64,000 nucleotides of DNA. It comes from Albidovulum aestuarii. GTDB lineage: Bacteria; Pseudomonadota; Alphaproteobacteria; Rhodobacterales; Rhodobacteraceae. Below, piece by piece: positions 2,741 through 55,392 of this stretch (its first letter is position 1; each line of letters starts with the position of its first letter). The notes under the pieces were generated by a model. The model saw only the letters and a list, made by a program, of their open reading frames with translations. It searched no databases and had not been told where the DNA came from. Both the position numbers and the translations under genes were made by a program. The stretch is from positions 310,001 through 374,000 of the forward strand of contig NZ_JASBQQ010000001.1 in the NCBI RefSeq assembly GCF_029961185.1, read 5' to 3'.

Positions 2741-2781
2741 TTTTGCCCTTTCCGAGAGGGGAGGGCTTGGGGATTTTCACC

Positions 2782-4272
2782 GTGGGCTTGTATTTGAAGG
2801 TGCGCCGGGCTCACTTCCAGGACGGGCTGAGCGGGCGGCAGATTGCCCGGGATTTTGGCCTTAGCCGTGACAGTGTCGCGAAGATGCTGGCCTATTCGGA
2901 ACCGCCTGGGTATCGGCGGACGGCGCCGATCCGACGGCCGAAGCTTGATCCGTTTGCGGATCAGATCGACCAGTGGCTTGCCGAGGATCAAGGGCGCCCC
3001 CGCAAGCAGCGCCACACGGCGAAGCGGATCTTCGAGCGGCTTCGGGGTGAATGCGGGTTTGATGGCGGCTACACAATCGTGAAGGACTATGTCCGGCTCC
3101 GGAAGCGGACAGGCAGGGAGATGTTCGTGCCGCTGAGCCATCCGCCTGGACATGCGCAGGCGGACTTTGGTGAAGCGCTGGTGGTGATCGGTGGGGTCGA
3201 ACAGAAGGCGCACTACTTCGCCTTCGATCTTCCGCACAGTGACGCCTGCTTTGTCCGGGCCTACCCTGCAGCCACCACGGAAGCCTGGCTTGACGGGCAT
3301 GTGCATGCCTTTGCGTTCTTCGGGGCGGTCCCCCAGTCGATCCTGTACGACAACGACAAATGTCTGGTTGCCAGGATCATGCCGGATGGCACGCGGCAGA
3401 GAACGCAGCGGTTCAGCGCGATGCTTTCGCACTACGTGGTCCAGGATCGCTACGGGCGCCCAGGCAAGGGTAATGACAAGGGGGCCGTCGAGGGACTCGT
3501 CGGATATGCCCGACGGAACTTCATGGTGCCTGTCCCGTCCTTTCCGGACTGGGATGTGTTCAACGCCCATCTCGAAGAGCAGTGCCGCAATCGCCAGGGC
3601 GATGTCCTGCGCGGCCACAAGGCCAGCATCGGTGACCGGCTGCATGCTGACCTTGCCGCGATGCGGGATTTGCCCGGCGCGCCCTTTGAAGCCTGCGATC
3701 TGCAGAGCGGCCAGGTCACGTCGACATCCGTCGTGCGTTACCGCGGCAACGACTACTCGGTGCCGGTCGCCTTTGGTCACCGCGACGTCTGGATCAAGGG
3801 CTTCGTCACCCGTGTTGTCATCGGCTGCGCGGCGCAGGTGATCGCCGATCACCCCCGGTCCTACGACACCGGCGACATGGTGTTCGATCCATTGCACTAC
3901 CTGCCTCTGATCGAGCGCAAGATCATGTCCTTCGATCAGGCGGCGCCTCTGCAGGGCTGGGAGCTGCCCGAGGCCTTCGCCACGCTCCAGCGGATTTTGG
4001 AGGCTCGACAGGGTAAGGCCGGCAAGCGAGAATACGTGCAGGTTCTGCGCCTTCTGGAGCGCTTCGAGCTCGCAGTGCTGCATCCGGCGGTCAGGGACGC
4101 CTTGCGGATGGGCGCGGTCAGCTTCGACGCGATCAAGCACCTGGTCCTGTGCAGGGTCGAGCGGCGGCCACCCCGGTTGGATCTGGATGTCTATCCCTTC
4201 CTGCCCAGGACCAACATCGCCACCACCTCCGCTGCGTCCTACATGACCCTGCTGGCCGGGAGCGACGCATGA
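2782..4272 (+). CDS. istA: IS21-family transposase IstA
   Basis: This is the DDE transposase of the element. A helix-turn-helix (LSGRQIARDFGLSRDSVAKM) sits in the first 45 residues. The catalytic core follows, with the first Asp in AQADFGEA, the second in ILYDNDK and the Glu in NDKGAVEGLVGYARR. The C-terminal part carries the Mu-type beta-barrel region typical of IstA. The length of about 496 aa is normal. GTG at 2782 was chosen because it starts directly before the conserved LKVRRAHFQDG segment; an ATG at 2743 would add 13 residues overlapping the inner terminal repeat. Its TGA overlaps the istB ATG (ATGA). The gene looks intact. Confidence 0.9.
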   Translation: MGLYLKVRRAHFQDGLSGRQIARDFGLSRDSVAKMLAYSEPPGYRRTAPIRRPKLDPFADQIDQWLAEDQGRPRKQRHTAKRIFERLRGECGFDGGYTIVKDYVRLRKRTGREMFVPLSHPPGHAQADFGEALVVIGGVEQKAHYFAFDLPHSDACFVRAYPAATTEAWLDGHVHAFAFFGAVPQSILYDNDKCLVARIMPDGTRQRTQRFSAMLSHYVVQDRYGRPGKGNDKGAVEGLVGYARRNFMVPVPSFPDWDVFNAHLEEQCRNRQGDVLRGHKASIGDRLHADLAAMRDLPGAPFEACDLQSGQVTSTSVVRYRGNDYSVPVAFGHRDVWIKGFVTRVVIGCAAQVIADHPRSYDTGDMVFDPLHYLPLIERKIMSFDQAAPLQGWELPEAFATLQRILEARQGKAGKREYVQVLRLLERFELAVLHPAVRDALRMGAVSFDAIKHLVLCRVERRPPRLDLDVYPFLPRTNIATTSAASYMTLLAGSDA

Positions 4273-5033
4273 CCGACGCGCCCGAACTGCTGCTGGCGCA
4301 TCACCTCAAGACCCTGCGCCTGCCGACCTTCCTGCGGGAACATGACAAGCTGGCCCGTATCTGCGCGGCAGAGGGCGTGGATCATGTGCGCTACCTGGCC
4401 CGCCTGACCGAACTCGAGCTGATCGACCGCGAGCGGCGCATGGTCGAGCGCCGGATCAAGTCGGCGAAGTTCCCGACCGTCAAGAGCTTCGACAGCTTCG
4501 ACTTCAAGGCCATCCCGTCACTGAACAAGATGATGGTGCTGGAGCTGGCGCGCTGCGAATGGATCGAGCGCAGGGAGAATGTCATCGCGCTCGGCCCATC
4601 CGGCACCGGAAAGACCCACGTCGCCCTCGGCCTGGGGCTCGCCGCCTGCCAGAAGGGCTTGCCCGTCGCCTTCGTCACCGCGGCCTCGCTGGTTCACGAG
4701 TTGATGGAGGCCCGCGACGAGAAACGCCTGATGCGCCTCCAACGCCAGTTGGCCAAGGTCAAGCTGCTGATCATTGATGAGTTGGGCTTCGTGCCACTGA
4801 GCAAAACCGGCGCCGAACTCCTGTTCGAACTGATCTCGCAGCGCTACGAACGCGGCTCAACCCTGATCACATCGAACCTGCCCTTCGAGGAATGGACCGA
4901 GACCTTCGGCACCGAGCGCCTGACAGGGGCCCTCCTGGACCGACTGACCCACCACGTCAACATCCTCGAGATGAACGGCGAAAGCTATCGCCTCAGCCAG
5001 AGCCGCGCCCGCCTCGCCGCTACAACCCAGTAA
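4269..5033 (+). CDS. istB: IS21-family helper ATPase IstB
   Basis: This is the AAA+ partner that selects target DNA and stimulates IstA. Visible motifs are Walker A GPSGTGKTH near residue 112 and Walker B LLIIDELGFVPLS near residue 168, followed by the sensor region TLITSNLPFEEW. The length of 254 aa is typical. The ATG at 4269 overlaps the istA stop codon by 4 nt, the usual translational coupling in this family. No disruption is seen, so the element is potentially active. Confidence 0.93.
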   Translation: MTDAPELLLAHHLKTLRLPTFLREHDKLARICAAEGVDHVRYLARLTELELIDRERRMVERRIKSAKFPTVKSFDSFDFKAIPSLNKMMVLELARCEWIERRENVIALGPSGTGKTHVALGLGLAACQKGLPVAFVTAASLVHELMEARDEKRLMRLQRQLAKVKLLIIDELGFVPLSKTGAELLFELISQRYERGSTLITSNLPFEEWTETFGTERLTGALLDRLTHHVNILEMNGESYRLSQSRARLAATTQ

Positions 5034-5724: not shown

Positions 5725-5894
5725 ATGCTCATATGGTATCAGCCGCAGAAAGCGTGACTGAGGAACTTGTGGAATACGGCTGGTCTGTTAGCCAGCTACA
5801 AAATCGCTGTAGGAACCAACTGCCTTCCACGATCTATCGCACCCTTATTCACTACCTGCTTCGCCCGAGAGATGGAGCGTTTCTGAATGGATGA
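5721..5894 (+). CDS. Small hypothetical ORF overlapping the Mrr fragment
   Basis: A 57-codon frame starts at GTG 5721, overlapping the stop of the Mrr fragment by 4 nt (GTGA), and ends at 5894. Its composition is protein-like, with a middle segment SVTEELVEYGWSVSQLQNRC and a possible helical C-terminus. It overlaps the 3' end of the converging helix-turn-helix gene by 50 nt. The GTGA junction suggests it was once translated after the restriction gene, for example as a small partner protein. No family is recognised, and it could be chance. Confidence 0.3.
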   Translation: MNAHMVSAAESVTEELVEYGWSVSQLQNRCRNQLPSTIYRTLIHYLLRPRDGAFLNG

Positions 5895-6489
5895 CGTCTG
5901 ACGATTGCTCGGTGATCGTTCCCAGCCCTCCGAGCAGCGCAAGCATCATGTCCTGTATCCGTCTCACGTTTTCGTCCACCTCTCCTGCAACTGGTTGCAA
6001 CGGATTGGCGATCCTGTTGCCGTAGAGCCCGATCATCGCGCCGAGTTTCACGGACTGGTTTTCAATCTGAGTTACAAGCTGAAGTCCTGCCCGGCGGTCT
6101 TTCGCTGTGGTGCTTTCCCGGACGGTGCGCCACGCCTCGGCGCGGGCCAATCGCAACGAGGATATGCAGTCCATCACATAGTCGCGGGCCTGCATGCCGG
6201 ATGCTTCCTTGCGCAGATCTTCGATCAACCGCGCCCGCCATGCTCCGGCGGTGTTCACCGATACGCCGAACGCCTCGCTGATCTCGGATAGCGTACGGCG
6301 CTCCATGAACAGCGGGAGCAGGTCAGCTTTCACCACCTCCCAGTGCTCTTCGGTCAGAATGCGCGCGTGGCCGGTGCAAGCGACCGGCAGGTCTGCGCCT
6401 TCCAAGCCCGCTACGTCATCCGCGCCCGACGCTGGACCGCTTGTAGCGGTGCAATCGATTTCGGTCGGACGTTGAGGAACTTCGGTCAT
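5845..6489 (-). CDS. Helix-turn-helix protein, possibly terminase-small-subunit-like
   Basis: The 214-aa protein starts at ATG 6489, preceded by a purine-rich GAAAGAGCCAAG. The upstream extension of the frame is low-quality and covers the hairpin spacer, so it is not used. Residues about 50-105 carry a helix-turn-helix (RRTLSEISEAFGVSVNTAGAW) preceded by ILTEEHWEVVKADLLPLFME. The C-terminal half is helical. The layout recalls phage terminase small subunits and site-specific DNA-binding adaptors, but no family is certain. It is the last gene of the leftward island cassette, 121 nt after the small membrane protein. It may bind the structured or iterated spacer upstream; that is inference. Confidence 0.6.
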   Translation of the reverse strand: MTEVPQRPTEIDCTATSGPASGADDVAGLEGADLPVACTGHARILTEEHWEVVKADLLPLFMERRTLSEISEAFGVSVNTAGAWRARLIEDLRKEASGMQARDYVMDCISSLRLARAEAWRTVRESTTAKDRRAGLQLVTQIENQSVKLGAMIGLYGNRIANPLQPVAGEVDENVRRIQDMMLALLGGLGTITEQSSDVIHSETLHLSGEAGSE

Positions 6490-6524
6490 CTTGGCTCTTT
6501 CATGGGATTGCCCGAGATGCTGAT

Positions 6525-6602
6525 GGGCGGAGGCGCGTTGCAACCCGGTGCAACACCTCCGCCCACCGCCCTTCCCTGACAGGAACTTGGTGTAACTTGG
6601 TG
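6525..6602. promoter_or_regulatory. Structured spacer: two-tier hairpin plus tandem 10-bp repeat
   Basis: Between the small membrane-protein gene and the HTH gene lies a strong inverted repeat. GGGCGGAGG (6525-6533) pairs with CCTCCGCCC (6556-6564). Inside it, GTTGCA (6537-6542) pairs with TGCAAC (6549-6554) around a six-base loop. Next to it, at 6583-6602, is a nearly perfect tandem repeat of AACTTGGTG with a 10-bp period. The RNA of the leftward operon would carry both. They could be a processing or attenuation element, a binding site for the HTH protein, or a structured RNA used by the RT. There is no U-run, so it is not an ordinary terminator. Confidence 0.55.
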
Positions 6603-6610
6603 CCACCCCC

Positions 6611-6847
6611 TCACGGGGACAGGCGAGACAGGCAGAAGCCCGCAAGGCAGAACACTGGCCAGAACAGCACGAATGCGACCCATGCGCATATGGCATCCGC
6701 GCTGAGCGCCTGCACGCGCTGCTCCAAATAGAGGTGGCGTTCCAGATCGGGCGTTTCGGTCTGTTCGAGCGGGCGCATCACGATCCGCTGCCAGAGACGA
6801 ATGCCAAACCGGAGATAGGCGACGCCAATCGCTGCGTAGAGGATCAT
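6611..6847 (-). CDS. Small membrane protein coupled to the RT gene
   Basis: A 78-aa protein with one N-terminal hydrophobic segment (ILYAAIGVAYLRFGIRLW) and a strong C-terminal one (AICAWVAFVLFWPVFCLAGF), linked by a charged stretch with a leucine/glutamate-rich helix. Its ATG overlaps the stop of the RT-like gene (ATGA), so it is translated in fixed proportion to it. Small membrane proteins next to RTs or nucleases in islands are sometimes effectors or membrane anchors; that role is inference. No family is recognised. Confidence 0.65.
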   Translation of the reverse strand: MILYAAIGVAYLRFGIRLWQRIVMRPLEQTETPDLERHLYLEQRVQALSADAICAWVAFVLFWPVFCLAGFCLSRLSP

Positions 6848-8202
6848 CGTGGCTCTGCCTCCCGACCTTCGATGCGCTTAAGCACGCCCCAGATTTGCGC
6901 GCGGTCGGGCGTACCGACATCCGCAAACAGATTGTCGTGAAGTTCGATGATTGCATTGGTGCCGGACCATTCCGCCAGCCAACGGCTTGCTTCGCGATAG
7001 TAGGCCAGTTCGAGCGATGATGCGGGCACCATGGAATATCCCGATCTGACGTTGAGCAAGGCGCGCCAAACCAGCGCCGGAGCTTCGCCGAGCAGGGGGT
7101 TAATCGAGGCACCCAAGCTATTCCCGCCCGTCTTTGCGCGATGATCGCGGCACAGGCAATTGAACAACCGTTCCTGCGCGGTTTCGGCCTTAACGAGGTG
7201 CGCCATGATCCGCGCGTGACCCCGCTCCGATATGCCTATCTCCGGGCAATCAGGATCGAACCTGTAGCCCAGAAAGTCGAAGGGTATATTGTCAAAGTAT
7301 TCCGGTTCACACAGCGCAAGCGGGCCTGCGGAGCACCGCTCAAAGTGAGCGGCCAAGGTGTCAGCCATCGTCCGCGTTCCATCCGCCGTCTTCGCCAAGA
7401 CAATCAGGTTGTCGAAGCAAAGGAGCACCCGCGCATCGTCTCGCGTGGGGATGCCGTTGAGCAGCCACGCGAGGATGAGGCCGGAGAGCGGCGAGCCCTG
7501 TATGAGGCCCCTCGGCCCGCTTGCATTGTGTGTGATCAGCGTAGTACCAAGAGAGTACAGAACATGAGCAGCAACTCTGTATTTGCGATCTCTCTCAGTC
7601 GGTATTTCTCTCAAGTCTAGCGTTCGTCTTATCACCTCCTTGGGTAGTGGCAGTTCGTATAGGGCGTCGGGGTTGACCGATTGGTAGCAGTCAACGACAT
7701 CGGTGACGGCGGCAAAGCAGTAGCCTTCATTCTGAAGGCGCTTGACCTCACCGGCCGCTGCATCCCGGCCAAAATGCTTTACGCCAAAGACGTTCTCGCT
7801 CCGCTGATAAAGCTGCTCTAAGACCGGCTTCAGTAGGTAGTGCACCGCCTTCAGTTCGGGCGGCAGCTCACACTTTATGCGGTGCCCTCCGCTGCGCTTA
7901 GACGAGGGCCACCACATGACGGGAGCATTGCCCGGATCGCGAGCGTTCACGCGCTCAGCGAGGCTCATGGCTTGTTCCCGCGAGGGCGTCCCGCCCAGCG
8001 CTCTCAGCGCCGCGCTGAGGCGGGCATGGGGATTTCGCAGGTAGTTCCGCATGACAGGTTGCTGACGGCATCCTGACGCCGTCGCGTTACCCACATTGGC
8101 GGCAAGCTCCGCCGCCTTCTGGTGAGCGTGGCCCTGTTCCCTGATCCAATACTTCACCGGATCAGAGCGCAGGTCATTTGATACGGGTGGTCGCACAATC
8201 AT
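6844..8202 (-). CDS. Reverse-transcriptase-like protein with altered YxDD box
   Basis: A 452-aa protein with the ordered RT motifs. There is an arginine/lysine fingers region (KRSGGHRIKCELPPELKAVH, about 102-121). Motif A has its Asp in VTDVVDCYQSV (D168), and motif B reads RGLIQGSPLSGLILAWLL (231-248). The motif C position reads LCFDNLIVLA, so YxDD is replaced by CFDN (D264 kept, second Asp now N265). A FDFLGYRF block (308-315) matches the motif D/E region of group-II-like and unknown-group RTs. About 100 N-terminal and 130 C-terminal residues are unassigned; no maturase or HNH domain is seen. ATG 8202 overlaps the preceding stop (ATGA), as does the next start. Two of the three catalytic Asp remain, so activity is uncertain. 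It may be a bacterial 'unknown group' or defence RT. Confidence 0.75.
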   Translation of the reverse strand: MIVRPPVSNDLRSDPVKYWIREQGHAHQKAAELAANVGNATASGCRQQPVMRNYLRNPHARLSAALRALGGTPSREQAMSLAERVNARDPGNAPVMWWPSSKRSGGHRIKCELPPELKAVHYLLKPVLEQLYQRSENVFGVKHFGRDAAAGEVKRLQNEGYCFAAVTDVVDCYQSVNPDALYELPLPKEVIRRTLDLREIPTERDRKYRVAAHVLYSLGTTLITHNASGPRGLIQGSPLSGLILAWLLNGIPTRDDARVLLCFDNLIVLAKTADGTRTMADTLAAHFERCSAGPLALCEPEYFDNIPFDFLGYRFDPDCPEIGISERGHARIMAHLVKAETAQERLFNCLCRDHRAKTGGNSLGASINPLLGEAPALVWRALLNVRSGYSMVPASSLELAYYREASRWLAEWSGTNAIIELHDNLFADVGTPDRAQIWGVLKRIEGREAEPR

Positions 8203-8447
8203 TCGGCGTCTCGTGCTTCCAAGAGGCGATTGAGCCAGTCCCGAAAGGTTTCGCTGCGAATGGGCGCACACTCCAACCATAGTTCTCGAATGCGGGAATG
8301 GATAAGGCCCTCAACCAGAATGAGCATGTTGCCGCTCCTTTGACTCAGGTTGGTCATCATACTCATTCGAACATATCGTAGCGTTTGTTCGAGAATGACC
8401 TTTTCGGCTTCGATCTCGTTGTTTTCGGGCGTAAGAGTCGTCGTCAT
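8199..8447 (-). CDS. Small helical protein preceding the RT
   Basis: An 82-aa, mostly helical protein with an acidic N-terminus (MTTTLTPENNEIEAEKVILE) and a C-terminal amphipathic part (SETFRDWLNRLLEARDAE). Its stop overlaps the RT start by 4 nt (ATGA), so both are probably made in equal amounts and may form a complex. It is shorter than the Avd accessory proteins of diversity-generating retroelements and lacks their recognisable sequence. No family is recognised. An AGGAAC purine-rich stretch precedes the ATG. Confidence 0.6.
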   Translation of the reverse strand: MTTTLTPENNEIEAEKVILEQTLRYVRMSMMTNLSQRSGNMLILVEGLIHSRIRELWLECAPIRSETFRDWLNRLLEARDAE

Positions 8448-8474: not shown

Positions 8475-8726
8475 TCAGGCGACTGTTTCGGTGATCGGGG
8501 TAAAGTGGAACTTGCACCGGGTGCGGTATGTCCGTTCCCCGTAGCCATCATCGACGGCAAATTGGTCCACGGCATTGGCTTCGAGATACTGCTTCATCTC
8601 CGCGCTGATCGGGACGCCGTCGCCCCTCTTAAACACGGTCTCCACTCCAGGGTTGGGCCAGTTGAGGACGGCGTATCTCATCCCGTGCACCAAAGTCGCC
8701 AAGTGGGTCGTCAGTTCGCTGCTCAT
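8475..8726 (-). CDS. Small hypothetical protein of the RT cassette
   Basis: An 83-aa protein. The ATG at 8726 is preferred over an upstream GTG because AAGGTGA lies 5 nt before it. It begins right after the stop of the preceding gene. The sequence mixes helix and strand (MSSELTTHLATLVHGMRYAV, later RTYRTRCKFHFT) and has no signal peptide or membrane segment. The tight spacing (27 nt to the next gene) places it in the same transcription unit. The family is unknown. Confidence 0.55.
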   Translation of the reverse strand: MSSELTTHLATLVHGMRYAVLNWPNPGVETVFKRGDGVPISAEMKQYLEANAVDQFAVDDGYGERTYRTRCKFHFTPITETVA

Positions 8727-8736
8727 CGGTTTCACC

Positions 8737-9078
8737 TTACTGCTTCTTGCTCAGGCCAAAGGCGCGAGCGATGTTGGATTGCTTCGGCTGTTCTCTCTCG
8801 GGCAGCCGAATACCGAACGTGGTTTCAATCTTGCGACGCCGGGCTTTTGCGCCGCCGTCATTTGTGACTGTCTTCGGGGTGTCGGCGGCGCTGGGCAATG
8901 CCGGGTCCCGACCAAAGAGCATCGCTGCTCGCTTGCGTTCGCAGGTGGCTTTAGGTTCGTCATCCGGCTGAGCCTGCGCGGGCTTTGCTTCGGTCATCTG
9001 GTGGCGATACCAAATGCTCTGGCGGGGGTCAGTTTGTTGCTCGCCGGTGCAACCGGGTGCACAGTTTTTTTGTGCCAT
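8737..9078 (-). CDS. Hypothetical basic protein of the RT cassette
   Basis: A 113-aa protein, low in order at the N-terminus (Gln/Pro/Ala/Asp-rich) and basic at the C-terminus (GGAKARRRKIETTFGIRLPE, then a hydrophilic helix ending FGLSKKQ). ATG 9078 is preceded by AAGGA at 9 nt; a shorter form from ATG 8997 is possible. The basic tail could bind nucleic acid. It lies 38 nt after the AlpA-type gene and directly before the 83-aa gene, so it is probably the second gene of the island operon. No family is recognised. Confidence 0.5.
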   Translation of the reverse strand: MAQKNCAPGCTGEQQTDPRQSIWYRHQMTEAKPAQAQPDDEPKATCERKRAAMLFGRDPALPSAADTPKTVTNDGGAKARRRKIETTFGIRLPEREQPKQSNIARAFGLSKKQ

Positions 9079-9116: not shown

Positions 9117-9317
9117 TCAGGCCGAGCGCTGAGCGTTAAGGCTGTCGCAGTGGCGATGAAGTTCCTCAGTCAGCCAATAGACACGGCGACCGATATGAAC
9201 GGGTTCAGGGATATGACCCAGTTTCGTCCAGCGCCACAGGGTTGCCGTACTGATACCGTAAAAGGCTGCGGTATCCCGGGCAGAACTTAACCTACCCTTC
9301 TGCAATTGGTTTGGCAT
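9117..9317 (-). CDS. AlpA/excisionase-type helix-turn-helix regulator
   Basis: A 66-aa winged-helix DNA-binding protein of the MerR-like excisionase group. The motif ARDTAAFYGISTATLWRWTK followed by a strand-turn wing (IPEPVHIGRRVYWLTEEL) is characteristic. Such proteins act as recombination directionality factors or activators for the cognate integrase on prophages and islands. Its position on the same strand as the integrase, with the RT cassette downstream, fits that role. The promoter region was separated from the 244-aa gene by the IS427-group insertion about 100 bp upstream. Confidence 0.8.
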   Translation of the reverse strand: MPNQLQKGRLSSARDTAAFYGISTATLWRWTKLGHIPEPVHIGRRVYWLTEELHRHCDSLNAQRSA

Positions 9318-9418
9318 TTTACGAGACCTTCTGCTGTCTTTTGTGGGATCAAGATGGCAGAACGGTTTTTGGGTAAATACCCCCACAATATTACAATAGG
9401 GTTTCCGGCTAGGAACTA

Positions 9419-10256
9419 GGGTCTGTTGACGTTCAGGATTCCCATTTGATCTGAGTTCTGATTCAAGGTTGCAAACAGAGGAGAGCAGCCTTGACCCGTT
9501 TCGTATTGACCGATGCCCAATGGGCAACCATCGAGCCCTATTGCCTTGGCAAGAGGACCGACCCTGGTCAGACCGGGGGTGACCCGCGCGTGTTCATGGA
9601 AGCGGTGCTTTGGATCGTGCGCACGGGAGCACAATGGCGCGACCTACCCGACGAGTTTGGCAATTGGAACTCGGTGTTCAAACGTTTTCGCCGTTGGGTG
9701 ATGGCCGATGCATTCTACCGCATGTTCAAAGCTTTGGCGGCAGCCCCGGACTTCGAATACGCAATGATCGACGGTTCCATCGTCAAGGTCCATCGTGCGG
9801 GTCAGGGCGCTAAAGGGGGACTCACAGCCAGGCCATAGGCCGATCCCGCGGGGGCGTGACGACCAAGATACTGGCGCTCACCGATGCGCTTGGCAATCTC
9901 GCAGACTTCCGCCTGCTACCGGGACAAGCGCACGATCTGCGCGGCGTGCCCGACCTGCTGGATGGCTTCTATGCCAACCACATACTTGCCGACCGTGCGT
10001 TCGACGCAGATTGGTTGCGCGACGCACTCTCAAAAAGAGAGATCGCGCCGGTCATTCCACCGCGAAAGAACCGCAATCAGCCCGCCGTATACGACGAAGA
10101 GATGTACAAATGGCGGCATCTGGTCGAAAACTTCTTCCAGAAAATCAAGGATAACAGAGGCATAGCAACCCGGTATTGCAAGACAGACGCCAGCTTTTCT
10201 GCATTCATATCTGTCGCAGCAACCGTATTGTGGCTCAAATGAACGTCAACAGACCC
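9419..10256 (+). mobile_element. IS5-family (IS427-group) insertion sequence, 838 bp
   Basis: Perfect 17-bp terminal inverted repeats (GGGTCTGTTGACGTTCA at 9419-9435 and its complement at 10240-10256) bound a two-frame transposase gene. The flanks read CTA before and TAG after, so the element sits in a CTAG site with a 2-bp TA duplication, the rule for this group. Removing the IS restores an uninterrupted spacer between the 244-aa gene and the AlpA-type gene, so insertion was clean. Confidence 0.92.
9491..10242 (+). CDS. IS427-group transposase, two frames joined by a -1 frameshift
   Basis: OrfA starts at TTG 9491 (GGAGAG upstream) and by itself stops at 9836-9838. The second frame continues with GTHSQAIGRSRGGVTTKIL if the ribosome slips back one base on TAAAGGGGGA at 9811-9820; this exactly restores the sequence expected for the family. 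DDE residues are in YAMIDGSIVKVH (first Asp), ILADRAFDADWL (second Asp) and RHLVENFFQKIKDNRG (Glu, with the following K/R). The two-ORF layout is normal for the group and is not evidence of decay. The fused length is about 250 aa. Confidence 0.85.
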
Positions 10257-10303
10257 TAGCTACTGAAGAAATCTGGAAAGCACACAACCTTCCGGACCAC
10301 AGC

Positions 10304-11038
10304 CTAACGTTTTGCGGGCCGCCCCGGCCGAGCGAGGTTTCCAACACCAGCTCCCCTCAGTCTCTCCCATAGTCTGCTCATGGTGTTTGACTTGGGTTCT
10401 TTTCCAAATTGTTCCGCCAGCATATTGATCGTTACGGGAGTTTCATGGTTTTCTACAAACTCGATAGCCTTGCGCAGATCGTGATCGTTTAAGATGCACA
10501 GGACCGCGCCTGTGAGACCGGCAAGCGTCGACTTAGCCCTATCAAATAATACTTGCTCGTCTGGATGGCTCGGTGACGGGAACTCCGATGGTTTCAATAC
10601 TGTCCAGTCCTCATTGAGAAATGCGAAGGTGCGTTTTCTTGCGCTGGCACGCTCCAATAGACTCACCTTAACCACACTTAGATCACCAACTTTAAGAAGA
10701 GCCGCCCCATCACCCCAATCTTTTGTCGGAAAGATAATCTCCTCTCTGATGCGATGCAAACGGTCGTCAAGGTCACATAGACGCAGAAGTCCCGGAACCC
10801 TATAGATATGTTCCTCCAAAAGTATCATAGCCAAACCAATTCGGAGCTTTTCGCGAAGTTGAGAGACTTTTAGACTATCTTCAATAGTGTTTGTAGAATG
10901 CGCTACCCAAAATGAGCGCGGGGTCGGCGCGGCACAAATCCTATCGACAAAATCCCGTAAATCAGCTTTCTCTCGAACCTCGCGTAAAAAGCGCCGGTCC
11001 AGTTCGGAGACAAGCTCGCAGCCATTGGGAATTTTCAT
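10304..11038 (-). CDS. Hypothetical protein between integrase and IS427 element
   Basis: A 244-aa soluble protein with no recognised family. The N-terminal two thirds are charged and alpha/beta (for example KWSFLNEDW-like strands around residue 150). The C-terminal 60 residues resemble a winged helix (TPVTINMLAEQFGKEPKSNT, then SRLWERLRGAGV) and end in a basic GRPAKR tail, suggesting DNA binding. It starts 40 nt after the integrase stop on the same strand and was probably co-transcribed with it. Its base composition is lower in GC than the flanking core genes, consistent with island origin. Confidence 0.6.
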   Translation of the reverse strand: MKIPNGCELVSELDRRFLREVREKADLRDFVDRICAAPTPRSFWVAHSTNTIEDSLKVSQLREKLRIGLAMILLEEHIYRVPGLLRLCDLDDRLHRIREEIIFPTKDWGDGAALLKVGDLSVVKVSLLERASARKRTFAFLNEDWTVLKPSEFPSPSHPDEQVLFDRAKSTLAGLTGAVLCILNDHDLRKAIEFVENHETPVTINMLAEQFGKEPKSNTMSRLWERLRGAGVGNLARPGRPAKR

Positions 11039-11078: not shown

Positions 11079-12272
11079 TTATCCCCTCGCCATCTTCACA
11101 ACCTGACCGGAAGACTTGCCGCTCACGAATTGCCCCCAGCGCTCCAGTAGCGCCCGTCGTCTTTCGAGATGGTCGGTCCGGTTATATGCCTGCGTCACCT
11201 TATTCCCCACAGAGTGCGCCAGCATCATCTCGCTGACCTCAAACGGGGCGTCGGTGACCTCGGACAGCCAAACCCGAAGGCTGGTACGGAAACCGTGGGG
11301 ACGAGCTTCCATCCCCCGCCGCTCCATCAGGCGCGACATGGTGGCGTCTGCGATCACCCCCTTACGGACATTCGGGAACAGGTAGCCATCTCGGGAAAAG
11401 CGGCGCGCTTCGCCAATGACGCCCAGCGCCTCTGAAGATAACGGCACACGGAAATCCGGCGTTCGGTCCCTGAGCCCCTTCATCGCCTCGCCGGGGATCG
11501 TCCAAACGTCGCCCGCAAGCTGATCTTCGTGAAGCCACCGAACCGGGCCGCTACGTACTCCTGTCAGGATCAGGAACCGGAGCGCGAGATGGGTCACAGA
11601 CCCTTCGTCCAAAGACTGGTAGAAGGCAGGCACTTCCTGCCAAGGCAGCGAAGGAATGTTCGTGATCTTGTGCCGGGACTTCCCGAGCAGAGCCCGCGCC
11701 TTCTCCGGGGCCTGCAAATCCACATTCAATCCCAGCGCCGCAGCATGACGAAGGCAAATGCCGATGCGGTTCAACGCCTTCTGGGCCGTATGTGCCTTGC
11801 TGTGCCAGATCGGGGCCAGTGTGTCGCGAATGTCGATCTGGTCGAGGTCCGACACGGGCACCTTGCCCAGCTTCGGCAGAACATGAAGCTCAAGCGGGCT
11901 GAACCACCGGCCAGCCTTGCCGTCGCCCTTAAGCTCGGCCTTGCGGCTTTCAAACGCATCCTCGGCAACATCCTTGAGCAAGTGCAGGTTCCGTGCGGCG
12001 TCACGCTTCTCTCGCTCCCGGTCTTTGATCGGATCAACATTGCTGCGCACCTTGGCCCGCGCGTCGTCCGCCTGTCTGCGCGCCTCGGCTAGAGAGACCG
12101 AAGGGTAGGCCCCGAGCCCCATCTCCCGTCGGCGTCCATGGATAGTAACCCGGAGGAACCATTGCGCTCCGCCATCATTTCGCTTGTGAAACCAGAGGCC
12201 ACCGCCATCAGCATATTTGCCCGGCGCGGCTGCGGCGATACCCTTCGCGGTTAGTCGGTTCAAAGCCCGCAT
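11079..12272 (-). CDS. Tyrosine-type integrase of the island
   Basis: A site-specific recombinase of the P4/phage type (397 aa from ATG 12272, with AGAGGA upstream). The N-terminal arm-binding DUF4102-like domain is visible (LTAKGIAAAAPGKYADGGGL, then MGLGAYPSVSLAEARRQA). The catalytic part shows the first Arg in LTGVRSGPVR, HGFR in RPHGFRTSLRVW, a His in MLAHSVGNK and the Tyr nucleophile in VTQAYNRTD. It lies at the right end of the accessory block, pointing inwards, with core metabolism starting 196 bp away. The attachment site is therefore expected in 12300-12467, although no tRNA is present there. Confidence 0.92.
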   Translation of the reverse strand: MRALNRLTAKGIAAAAPGKYADGGGLWFHKRNDGGAQWFLRVTIHGRRREMGLGAYPSVSLAEARRQADDARAKVRSNVDPIKDREREKRDAARNLHLLKDVAEDAFESRKAELKGDGKAGRWFSPLELHVLPKLGKVPVSDLDQIDIRDTLAPIWHSKAHTAQKALNRIGICLRHAAALGLNVDLQAPEKARALLGKSRHKITNIPSLPWQEVPAFYQSLDEGSVTHLALRFLILTGVRSGPVRWLHEDQLAGDVWTIPGEAMKGLRDRTPDFRVPLSSEALGVIGEARRFSRDGYLFPNVRKGVIADATMSRLMERRGMEARPHGFRTSLRVWLSEVTDAPFEVSEMMLAHSVGNKVTQAYNRTDHLERRRALLERWGQFVSGKSSGQVVKMARG

Positions 12273-12299
12273 TCTGCATTCCTCTGTCCACCCTACCAC

Positions 12300-12467
12300 C
12301 CACCTTTGAGCATAAGACAGTATGAGGTCAAACGAAACCCAAAAAGAGGGGATGATAGACTGATTTCAATCGCTTACGAGAATGGTGAGGCTTTATGATA
12401 GGGCGTGAAATCTTGGGTGTGTTCAATGCACTGCCGTCTGGGGGCACCACCTGCAATGGCCTTCAGC
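12300..12467. other. Candidate right attachment region of the island
   Basis: A non-coding interval between the integrase start and the stop of the fatty-acid oxidation gene. No tRNA or tmRNA end and no obvious direct repeat with the left side of the accessory region were found by eye. The insertion may have used the 3' end of the neighbouring gene. The left boundary was probably changed by the IS21 rearrangement, which would explain the lack of a visible repeat. Confidence 0.35.
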
Positions 12468-35709: not shown

Positions 35710-35826
35710 ACCTTGACGCGCCGCGCCGTTGCGTGTCACGCTTCCCGTCATGGGGCCCGCGACCGCGCCCCGTGAGGCCACGGCCAGACGCGTCGCATCC
35801 TTCATGATCAACCGAAAGGATGCCCC

Positions 35827-36627
35827 ATGCCCGGCTTTGCCTCCATCTCTGCAATTCAGCTTGCCCGCCTGATCGGCACGCCCGACTGCCCGGCCCTGAT
35901 CGACATCCAAACGGAGGAGGATTTCGCCGCCGATCCAAGGCTGATCCCGGGGTCGTTCCGTCACCCGTTCGATCGGGTTGAGGACCTCGTCTCCGACCTG
36001 ACGGCGCGGCGCGTGGTGGTCATCTGCCAGAAGGGCAGAAAACTATCCGAAGGGGCCGCGGCGGTTTTGCGCTGCCGCGGTGTGCAGGCGGAAACCCTTG
36101 ACGGCGGCGCGCTTGGCTGGGCCGCCGAGGGTCTGCCGATGATCCCCGCCGCCGCCCTGCCCGTTACGCGCCTCTGGGTCACGCGGCACCGGCCCAAGAT
36201 CGACCGTATTGCCTGCCCATGGCTGATCCGTCGGTTCATCGACCCCGGCGCGCGGTTCCTGTTCGTCGCCCCGGTCGAGGTTCCTGCTGTAGCCGAGAAG
36301 TTCAACGCCACCCCATTCGACATCGAAGGCGTCACCTTCTCGCATCGCGGCGAGAAATGCTCTTTCGACGCGCTTCTTGACGATTTTCAACTTCACACAG
36401 AGCCGCTCGACCGGCTGGCTTTGGTGGTGCGCGGGGCCGATACCGACCGCCATGACCTTGCCCCGCAGGCGGCCGGGCTTTTGGCGCTGTCAGTTGGCCT
36501 GTCACGGCAATACAAGGACGATCTGGAGCAGGTTGAAGCCGGAATGCTGATGTATGACGCGCTTTATCGCTGGGCCCGCGATGGGTTCGATGAAGGCCAT
36601 GGCTGGCCGGCGGGGCGCAAGGCATGA
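35827..36627 (+). CDS. Chromate resistance protein: rhodanese domain plus ChrB-type domain
   Basis: A 266-aa fusion. Residues 1-105 resemble a rhodanese (LARLIGTPDCPALIDIQTEE, active-site loop VVVICQKGRKLSEGAA, where the Cys is present). Residues 110-266 match the ChrB C-terminal domain (LWVTRHRPKIDRIACPWLIR and RGADTDRHDL). ChrB acts as a chromate-sensing regulator or assists export, and the rhodanese fusion suggests a link to sulfur or thiol chemistry. It overlaps chrA by 4 nt (ATGA), so the two are translationally coupled. SD-like AAAGGA precedes the ATG. Confidence 0.85.
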   Translation: MPGFASISAIQLARLIGTPDCPALIDIQTEEDFAADPRLIPGSFRHPFDRVEDLVSDLTARRVVVICQKGRKLSEGAAAVLRCRGVQAETLDGGALGWAAEGLPMIPAAALPVTRLWVTRHRPKIDRIACPWLIRRFIDPGARFLFVAPVEVPAVAEKFNATPFDIEGVTFSHRGEKCSFDALLDDFQLHTEPLDRLALVVRGADTDRHDLAPQAAGLLALSVGLSRQYKDDLEQVEAGMLMYDALYRWARDGFDEGHGWPAGRKA

Positions 36628-53975: not shown

Positions 53976-54045
53976 AACAAGTCGCTATGACATCGCAGTC
54001 AGGTCAAGCGCCTAAACATCCGGACCGTACGGCCTTGCATTAAGG

Positions 54046-55392
54046 TCAGCGAATGCGTCGGCCATGACCATTGCCGGAATTGCCCTCGCCACTGTTTTCC
54101 GAATTCTCAGCGTTGTTGTTGTCTCCAGAATTGCCGGGGGCATCCTGATCGCCATTCCCGTGGCCATTGTTGTCGTGACCTTCGCCACCGCCGGAGCCTT
54201 CGCCACCACCGGAGCCTTCGCCACCGCCGGAGCCTTCGCCACCGCCGGAGCCTTCGCCACCACCGGAACCTTCGCCACCGCCGGAGCCTTCACCACCACC
54301 GGAACCTTCGCCACCACCGGAGCCTTCGCCACCGCCGGAACCTTCGCCACCACCGGAGCCTTCACCGCCGCCGGAGCCTTCACCGCCGCCGGAGCCTTCA
54401 CCGCCGCCGGAGCCTTCACCGCCGCCGGAGCCTTCGCCACCGCCGGGACCTTCGCCACCGGAGCCTTCGCCACCGCCGGAACCTTCGCCACCGCCAGAGC
54501 CTTCGCCTCCACCGCCGCCAGTGCCACCGCCGCCGCCAGTACCACCACCGCCGCCAGTGCCTCCACCGCCGCCAGTGCCGCCGCCGCCGCCAGTGCCTCC
54601 ACCGCCGCCAGTACCACCACCGCCGCCAGTGCCTCCACCGCCGCCAGTACCACCACCGCCGCCAGTGCCGCCGCCGCCGCCAGTGCCTCCACCGCCGCCA
54701 GTGCCGCCGCCGCCGCCAGTACCACCACCGCCGCCAGTGCCTCCACCGCCGCCAGTACCACCGCCGCCGCCAGTACCACCGCCGCCGCCAGTACCACCGC
54801 CGCCGCCAGTGCCTCCACCGCCGCCAGTGCCTCCACCGCCGCCAGTACCACCGCCGCCGCCAGTGCCTCCACCGCCGCCAGTACCACCGCCGCCGCCAGT
54901 GCCGCCGCCAGTGCCGCCGCCGCCGCCGGTACCACCACCGCCGCCAGTGCCTCCACCGCCGCCAGTACCACCGCCGCCAGTACCACCGCCGCCGCCAGTG
55001 CCTCCACCGCCGCCAGTGCCTCCACCGCCGCCAGTGCCTCCACCGCCGCCAGTACCACCACCGCCGCCAGTGCCGCCGCCTACATCGTCACCGCTCAGGC
55101 CTGGAATCGTGGCCGTTGCCGCGTCTGCGAGGAGCGCCGCGATTTCGGGACAATTCTCCAGTGCATATTCGAGAATTTCGGCATAGTTCGCGCTGTCGCG
55201 AATGCGTTTCGCCTCCTCGGGCGACAGGGTCGCCTGGGCGCAGAGATCGGCCAGATAATCATTCATGGACACCTGAACGACCGGCGCGGCCATGCCGCCG
55301 CCAAAGGCCATTCCGGATGCTGAAATCACAACAAGGGCTGCAGAACCCGCAGCCAGAACCAACGACCGGCGAACGCCGTCGAACTCAAACAT
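54046..55392 (-). CDS. Secreted Gly-rich hexapeptide-repeat protein
   Basis: A 448-aa protein. A hydrophobic segment (LVLAAGSAALVVISASGMAF) acts as signal or anchor. Residues 41-100 form a small helical unit with two Cys (DYLADLCAQATLSPEEAKRI and EYALENCPEIAALLADAATA). Residues about 105-293 are repeats of GGGGGT, residues 294-402 repeats of GGGEGS, and the tail is rich in Asn, Gly, Asp and Ser and ends GHGRRIR. ATG 55392 has GGAGTGGG upstream. Such repeats suggest an extended, flexible surface protein, not an enzyme. The repeat region keeps all six frames open, so only the N-terminal unit proves the frame. It is shorter in slippage-prone alleles; variation is expected. Confidence 0.75.
   Translation of the reverse strand: MFEFDGVRRSLVLAAGSAALVVISASGMAFGGGMAAPVVQVSMNDYLADLCAQATLSPEEAKRIRDSANYAEILEYALENCPEIAALLADAATATIPGLSGDDVGGGTGGGGGTGGGGGTGGGGGTGGGGGTGGGGGTGGGGTGGGGGTGGGGGTGGGGGTGGGTGGGGGTGGGGGTGGGGGTGGGGGTGGGGGTGGGGGTGGGGGTGGGGGTGGGGGTGGGGGTGGGGGTGGGGGTGGGGGTGGGGGTGGGGGTGGGGGTGGGGGTGGGGGTGGGGGTGGGGGTGGGGGTGGGGGEGSGGGEGSGGGEGSGGEGPGGGEGSGGGEGSGGGEGSGGGEGSGGGEGSGGGEGSGGGEGSGGGEGSGGGEGSGGGEGSGGGEGSGGGEGSGGGEGSGGGEGSGGGEGHDNNGHGNGDQDAPGNSGDNNNAENSENSGEGNSGNGHGRRIR
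54165..55080. repeat. 18-bp tandem repeat array in the Gly-rich gene
   Basis: About 50 copies of an 18-bp unit, in two blocks. The block at 54505-55080 reads GGTACTGGCGGCGGTGGT-like on the coding strand (GGGGGT); the block at 54165-54500 reads GGCTCCGGTGGTGGCGAA-like (GGGEGS). One unit in each block is shortened (for example GGGGT or GGEGP). The array is minisatellite-like and coding. It has no spacers and is not a CRISPR. Confidence 0.85.

Follow-up and report, generated by a model that had tools for sequence, protein, structure and literature searches.

A reverse-transcriptase-like clade with a DN-dominated motif C behind alpA on tRNA-integrating islands: a candidate replication protein

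The RT-like gene and its product

The stretch considered here, termed the window, comprises 64,000 nucleotides of Albidovulum aestuarii (Rhodobacteraceae; contig NZ_JASBQQ010000001.1, positions 310,001 to 374,000) and carries on its reverse strand a gene for a reverse transcriptase (RT)-like protein, in which asparagine replaces the second aspartate of motif C. The original prediction, made from the letters of the DNA, had described an RT with ordered motifs and CFDN at motif C on an integrase island, either a defence RT or a fold put to another use. The ordered motifs and CFDN are borne out by profiles, by the alignment of homologues and by predicted RT-like folds. Defence and template-independent nucleotide addition, both raised in that prediction, may each still apply, but the context of the gene points elsewhere, to the slot in which satellite-like islands carry replication genes—a reading absent from the original prediction.

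6844..8202, reverse strand: RT-like protein with motif C CFDN, 452 aa (ordered RT motifs, profiles, model, tree)
7408..7419, reverse strand: motif C codons C262-F263-D264-N265, counted from the ATG at 8202

The full open reading frame (ORF) spans 6844-8280 on the reverse strand; the ATG at 8202 is the likely start, because it overlaps the 82-aa gene upstream through an ATGA, and gives the 452 residues. Along the protein the motifs follow each other as A (D168), B (232-GLIQGSPLSG-241), C (262-CFDN-265) and E (310-FLG-312), and homologues can be aligned with it across all of them. Pfam RVT_1 matches at E 0.011, under its cut-off, and PADLOC—whose profiles of "unknown group" (UG) and other RT families display no cut-offs—returns RT_UG4 at 2.6e-6 (24.8 bits, profile positions 75-283 of 307) and a generic RT at 2.3e-5. 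PHROGs and NCBIfam give zero matches at E <= 1, and the profile searches found no maturase or endonuclease domain, in agreement with the original prediction. A Terminase_6 match on the N-terminus (0.0027, under cut-off) was regarded as chance.

In the AlphaFold2 model of the window protein, built from 8 sequences with a mean predicted local distance difference test score (pLDDT) of 62.6 and poor from about residue 328 onward, D264-N265 form the turn of the β hairpin 257-262/265-270 in the palm. The better model of the Nioella homologue L091 (pLDDT 78.8, predicted template modelling score 0.78) places D272-N273 likewise at the hairpin turn. For both models the best Foldseek matches in the PDB are RTs—of group II introns, G2L4, diversity-generating retroelements (DGR), retrons and defence-associated RTs (DRT)—with E down to 2.1e-10; influenza polymerase chains appear from rank 16 for the window model. 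The protein is, hence, predicted to hold motifs A, B, C and E in order within a palm/fingers fold, as RTs do. The adjacent Asp pair at motif C, a further mark of the RT superfamily, is absent in the window (N265).

Motif C and the active site across the clade

The family is rare, with members in Ruegeria, Paracoccus and related bacteria. The window genome bears a single copy, and a match is found in 3 of 394 genomes of the same family, window counted. Over wider, overlapping genome sets the profile matched in 14 of 385 (class), 31 of 390 (order) and 85 of 398 genomes (phylum); among the loci read, the class and phylum matches are mostly ordinary YADD/MDD-type RTs. Order and phylum matches lacking a locus stayed outside this reading, so that members may be missed and the aligned set of 16 distinct members, window among them, means at least 16. 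A scan of genome contigs yielded seven loci. Four had not been met in the other searches; they come from Paracoccus sp. WLY502, Defluviimonas sp., Ruegeria atlantica HKCCD9103 and an Acidimicrobiales metagenome-assembled genome. The contig of the last (L094) is 4.2 kb long, and its binning as Acidimicrobiales might mean that the gene crossed into another phylum or that the contig was put in the wrong bin. Searches of plasmids and phages, of solved structures by sequence, and of viral contigs, the last with patterns drawn from a single protein as well as from alignments, returned no relative at the thresholds used.

Duplicates were removed before counting (L089, L091 and L092, contigs of G018, G243 and G947), as were L040, whose frame is broken ahead of motif C, and a 17th, unaligned copy with DN in genome G881. 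An insertion that bears IS66-like genes, recognized by inspection, interrupts this last gene (L061, 9289-14085), and both pieces resemble the window clade. In the A3 model, members score at least 163 and 51 other RTs at most 103; 11 of the 16 members built this model, and the remaining five score 163-490. The nearest relative, from G1023, shares 34% identity with the window protein, and most of the 16 share 20-35% pairwise.

Position 265 is Asn in 13 of the 16 aligned members and Asp in three (L028, L005, L006); DN is the dominant, non-universal state of the clade. The motif A Asp (D168), a Tyr or Phe at the steric-gate position A+5, R108, G232, G236, S240 and D264 are kept in 16/16. Motif C was readable in 50 of the 51 other RTs, and all 50 carry Asp at the second position, including L015 (MDD), scored by reading its sequence. 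A 45-row tree, which combines the 16 members with 29 hand-picked RTs of the 51 and holds no rows chosen as UG references, splits members from other RTs on a 100/99 branch. A single origin of DN is neither shown nor rejected on this tree (p-AU 0.093). Alignment and tree show the clade to be a distinct, diverged group of putative RTs with a DN-dominated motif C and its other catalytic positions kept. The expectation of a distinct RT group on integrase islands whose relatives keep the Asn is thereby upheld, in 13 aligned members and the split 17th. Homologues with a normal DD, which had been named as evidence to the contrary, do occur in 3/16 members but not in 13/16.

An aromatic residue at motif A+5 is a sign of dNTP rather than rNTP choice, and the Tyr or Phe at this place suggests that the clade uses dNTPs over rNTPs. 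For the second Asp of motif C, a 2012 survey describes invariance in RTs and in the RNA-dependent RNA polymerases (RdRps) of plus-strand and double-stranded RNA viruses, with birnaviruses excepted (PMC3394715). The ADN polymerases of birnaviruses are reported to be active with Mg or Mn and to have terminal transferase and RT activity; like the clade they bear Asn second in motif C at the hairpin tip, in their case in an active enzyme (PMC3121795). They are permuted viral RdRps, unlike the clade, and no homology is claimed. By this analogy, Asn in place of the second Asp suggests a metal site that may be altered but active.

The island and the slot behind alpA

The integrase island is real and larger than originally noted: about 32.4 kb of unmatched sequence, of which about 20 kb extend to the left of the window, stand against about 14.4 kb between the same flanks in the congeneric genome G824. 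To the right of 12434 the sequence continues in G824; on the opposite side the flank is reached at window position -20027. The island ends in a 16-bp repeat, CCGTCTGGGGGCACCA, identical to the 3' end of tRNA-Thr(TGT). In the window, the following features surround the RT-like gene:

12434..12449, forward strand: attR, 16-bp tRNA-Thr 3'-end repeat (partner at window -20005..-19990, outside the window)
11079..12299, reverse strand: tyrosine integrase (Arm-DNA-bind_3, Phage_int_M)
10304..11038, reverse strand: gene X, with a 244-aa product, 40 nt off the integrase gene on its alpA side; iolg-like by position, not homology
9411..10264, forward strand: IS5-like insertion between X and alpA, identified by inspection, with transposase ORFs at 9491-10242 and inverted ends of 25 bp
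9117..9317, reverse strand: AlpA/HTH_17-type regulator or excisionase, 66 aa, ATG 9317 (HTH_17 1.1e-5, 26 bits, cut-off 27; PHROG excisionase 7.4e-9)
8737..9078, reverse strand: ORF, 113-aa protein, no assigned family
8475..8735, reverse strand: ORF, 86-aa protein, no assigned family
8199..8447, reverse strand: 82-aa protein, 4-nt overlap with the RT start
6611..6847, reverse strand: 78-aa protein, strongly hydrophobic in one stretch; its gene overlaps the RT gene by 4 nt
5845..6489, reverse strand: 214-aa helix-turn-helix protein (HTH_23 E 0.0021, under cut-off, on the longer ORF 5845-6696)

In nine loci (window, L021, L022, L055, L058, L060, L061, L090, L093) the integrase gene is followed by the gene of an AlpA-type protein and then by that of the RT, all three in the same direction. 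Between integrase and AlpA stands a gene X in eight of the nine, none being called in L061, and this gene overlaps the integrase gene or sits 1 nt off it in five (L055, L021, L022, L058, L060). The simple gene caller found no integrase in L059 and neither X nor AlpA in L095. The Nioella locus L022 is the plainest: short ORFs aside, it consists of integrase, X, AlpA, RT and a 216-aa ORF, flanked by host-like genes. Repeats of tRNA-Leu end L021, L055 and L061 (24, 14 and 25 bp, respectively); the tRNA nearby is tRNA-Ser for L056 and L024, tRNA-Phe for L057 and tRNA-Ala for L088. No att repeats were found in the seven loci where they were sought in addition—L022 (two attempts), L058, L060, L056, L057, L024 and L088—and the genus of G243 offers one other genome, with no usable empty site.

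This layout resembles that of phage-inducible chromosomal islands (PICI), described with int, alpA and pri/rep (PMC6092414), and of their minimalist relatives (PICMI), for which the order int-iolg-alpA-up1-prim is given, with iolg often overlapping int by ATGA (PMC10803314). Shared are the integrase, the usual gene before alpA that in several loci overlaps int, AlpA, an optional small gene and the common direction—int and alpA being co-located and co-directional in the window and eight other loci—as well as att repeats in four RT loci, the window, L021, L055 and L061. The RT loci differ in their tRNA sites and in that an RT-fold protein takes the place of the primase or DUF3987 protein: where PICMIs carry prim, the RT-like gene is found, and no relative of 16 slot proteins of other islands turned up in the window island or 15 other RT loci.

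Relatives of the window integrase at E <= 1e-60 are present in 105 of 394 genomes. Twenty control stretches beside such integrases, 16 of about 10 kb and four of 2.2-4.5 kb, were picked by hand from the top matches, leaving out the window, G077 and G342 (near contig ends) and G266 (stop in integrase). The RT profile finds nothing in these 20 stretches at E <= 1. In eight of them a replication-type module is recognized behind alpA: Toprim+DUF3987 in L148, L150 and L152, AAA_25 in L151, L157 and L158, DUF3631 in L159, and a marginal REP_ORF2-G2P in L155 (28.0 bits, cut-off 27.8), where Pfam was run on representatives and the remainder assigned by homology. Conversely, 16 slot proteins from the controls have no relative at E <= 0.01 in the 16 RT loci, the spans of loci lacking mapped ends being set by hand. 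In the stretches tested, each module is absent from islands carrying the other. In the tree of integrases, islands with and without an RT are intermixed, the starred branches forcing at least four RT/non-RT changes, and the window integrase groups with L148 (74% identity; Toprim+DUF3987 in its slot) and L149. Among closely related islands the RT is thus exchanged for other modules in this slot.

Further along the island, the left 20 kb bear IS21-type and metabolic genes (by inspection), and the island may, hence, be composite. Two IS21-type istA/istB copies about 8 kb apart surround an ABC transporter (window 2767-5033 and L114:14591-16857), with equal lengths (501 and 254 aa) and identical starting residues—possibly a composite in itself. 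A short ORF at 5467-5724 matches the C-terminal part of Mrr_cat (4.8e-6) and is likely a restriction-gene remnant. Elsewhere in the window, 54001-55000 forms 1 kb at 73% GC with a strong GC skew (-0.34), unlike the remainder, and a chrB-a RNA match (35747-35829, 53.2 bits) lies about 1.2 kb past the tmRNA gene.

Replication, defence or another use of the fold

We tentatively favour, at somewhat less than an even chance, that the members of this clade act as DNA polymerases with an RT fold and replace the primase/helicase/Rep module of tRNA-integrating AlpA islands, a function we infer. Once alpA is switched on, integrase and AlpA would excise the island, and the RT-like protein would then provide a DNA primer or strand that lets the excised circle replicate. 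In PICMIs, deletion of prim is reported to lower element copies (PMC10803314). That the YxDN clade as a whole primes or performs replication of excised Rhodobacterales islands, interchangeably with Toprim/DUF3987 primases, AAA_25 helicases and Rep, we hold a little less firmly, as a real possibility. Among the papers listed from the open-licence literature, judged by titles and ranking, none connects an RT with such a slot or speaks of RTs with YADN or YxDN; the myRT survey notes primase fusions among UG10 RTs and, in complete genomes, 88 RTs that fall into no class (PMC8934634).

Several observations weigh against this replication role. Both ends are mapped or bracketed by host-like genes in five of the 16 RT loci (window, L021, L055, L061, L022), so that in the other 11 a replication gene may lie outside the stretch. 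Among the controls, eight of 20 hold a small protein that is winged-helix by eye only (L153, L154, L159, L160, L163, L165-L167; its placing relative to alpA not checked in each), L149, L161 and L162 hold slot proteins without annotation, L156 and L164 end ahead of the slot, and four stretches fall below 5 kb. Many of the cargo proteins are unannotated (7/10 without Pfam match), gene X proteins do not form a single family, RTs of the clade also adjoin other integrase types, and the L090 integrase entered its tree on a very long branch. Slot position is not function either—defence genes can also follow alpA—and the window island, with the IS5-like element between X and alpA, may have altered alpA expression and is perhaps inactive.

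The main rival is a defence RT (DRT or abortive-infection, Abi, type) carried as island cargo, which would make DNA upon phage infection and abort or block the infection; we regard it as doubtful, yet a serious contender. A single RT-fold ORF without intron domains and a weak profile similarity (UG4 best for the window; also UG17 and Drt3a) would suit it, and the 78-aa hydrophobic protein is possibly a partner or effector of the RT. A relative of the latter is found downstream of the RT in L055 (7532-7789; E 4e-5), the window's closest relative, but in these two loci only. The search against RT groups, advised from the start, did return generic RT and UG4 matches, but none of the UG classes is singled out: the generic profile matches 11/11 members (best 1.1e-17), UG4 10/11, and the matches spread across 49 families. 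The mostly xDN motif C is a further difference from UG/DRT and Abi RTs. The position of the RT behind AlpA is constant and its orientation that of integrase and AlpA, whereas cargo varies between islands, and no slot-type replication gene was found in the 16 RT loci, 11 of which lack mapped ends. No partner RNA was found at Rfam gathering level, at which unfamiliar retron RNAs could escape: there is no match where the window covers the island, and across eight RT loci only tRNAs and one locus-edge ureB small RNA. The 4-nt overlaps of the window RT gene with the genes on either side leave no visible space for an RNA partner. The RTs of group II introns, G2L4, DGRs and retrons share the fold, but Rfam found neither intron nor retron RNA in the loci scanned, Pfam no maturase or endonuclease domain, and motif C is mostly DN instead of DD.

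An RT fold re-purposed without polymerization, as an RNA/DNA-binding regulator or a replication accessory that retains the metal site, appears unlikely. It would account for Asn where the 2012 survey describes an invariant Asp in RTs and most RdRps considered (PMC3394715); the reported activity of the birnavirus ADN enzymes despite their Asn (PMC3121795) speaks against it. Although most of the 16 members are only 20-35% identical to each other, none departs from D168, D264, R108, the aromatic gate or motif B, which is hard to explain without catalysis. The same invariance speaks against the degenerate RT also considered in the original prediction, and a decaying fossil on a mobile island is very improbable: frames are open, most members of a deep clade carry the identical Asn, and the close Ruegeria pair L092/L095 (409/457 residues identical) has a dN/dS of 0.33 over the whole gene and 0.30 in the RT core. 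Signs of decay are the interrupted G881 copy, the IS5-like element beside alpA and a dN/dS of 0.72 over the last 127 codons of this pair, on 7 changes.

If replication is indeed the role of the RT-like protein, bacterial RTs, known to serve in retrotransposition, mutagenesis, spacer capture and defence, would have a further task, the replication of satellite-like DNA islands. The clade would then also be a natural test of whether polymerization needs the second Asp of motif C.
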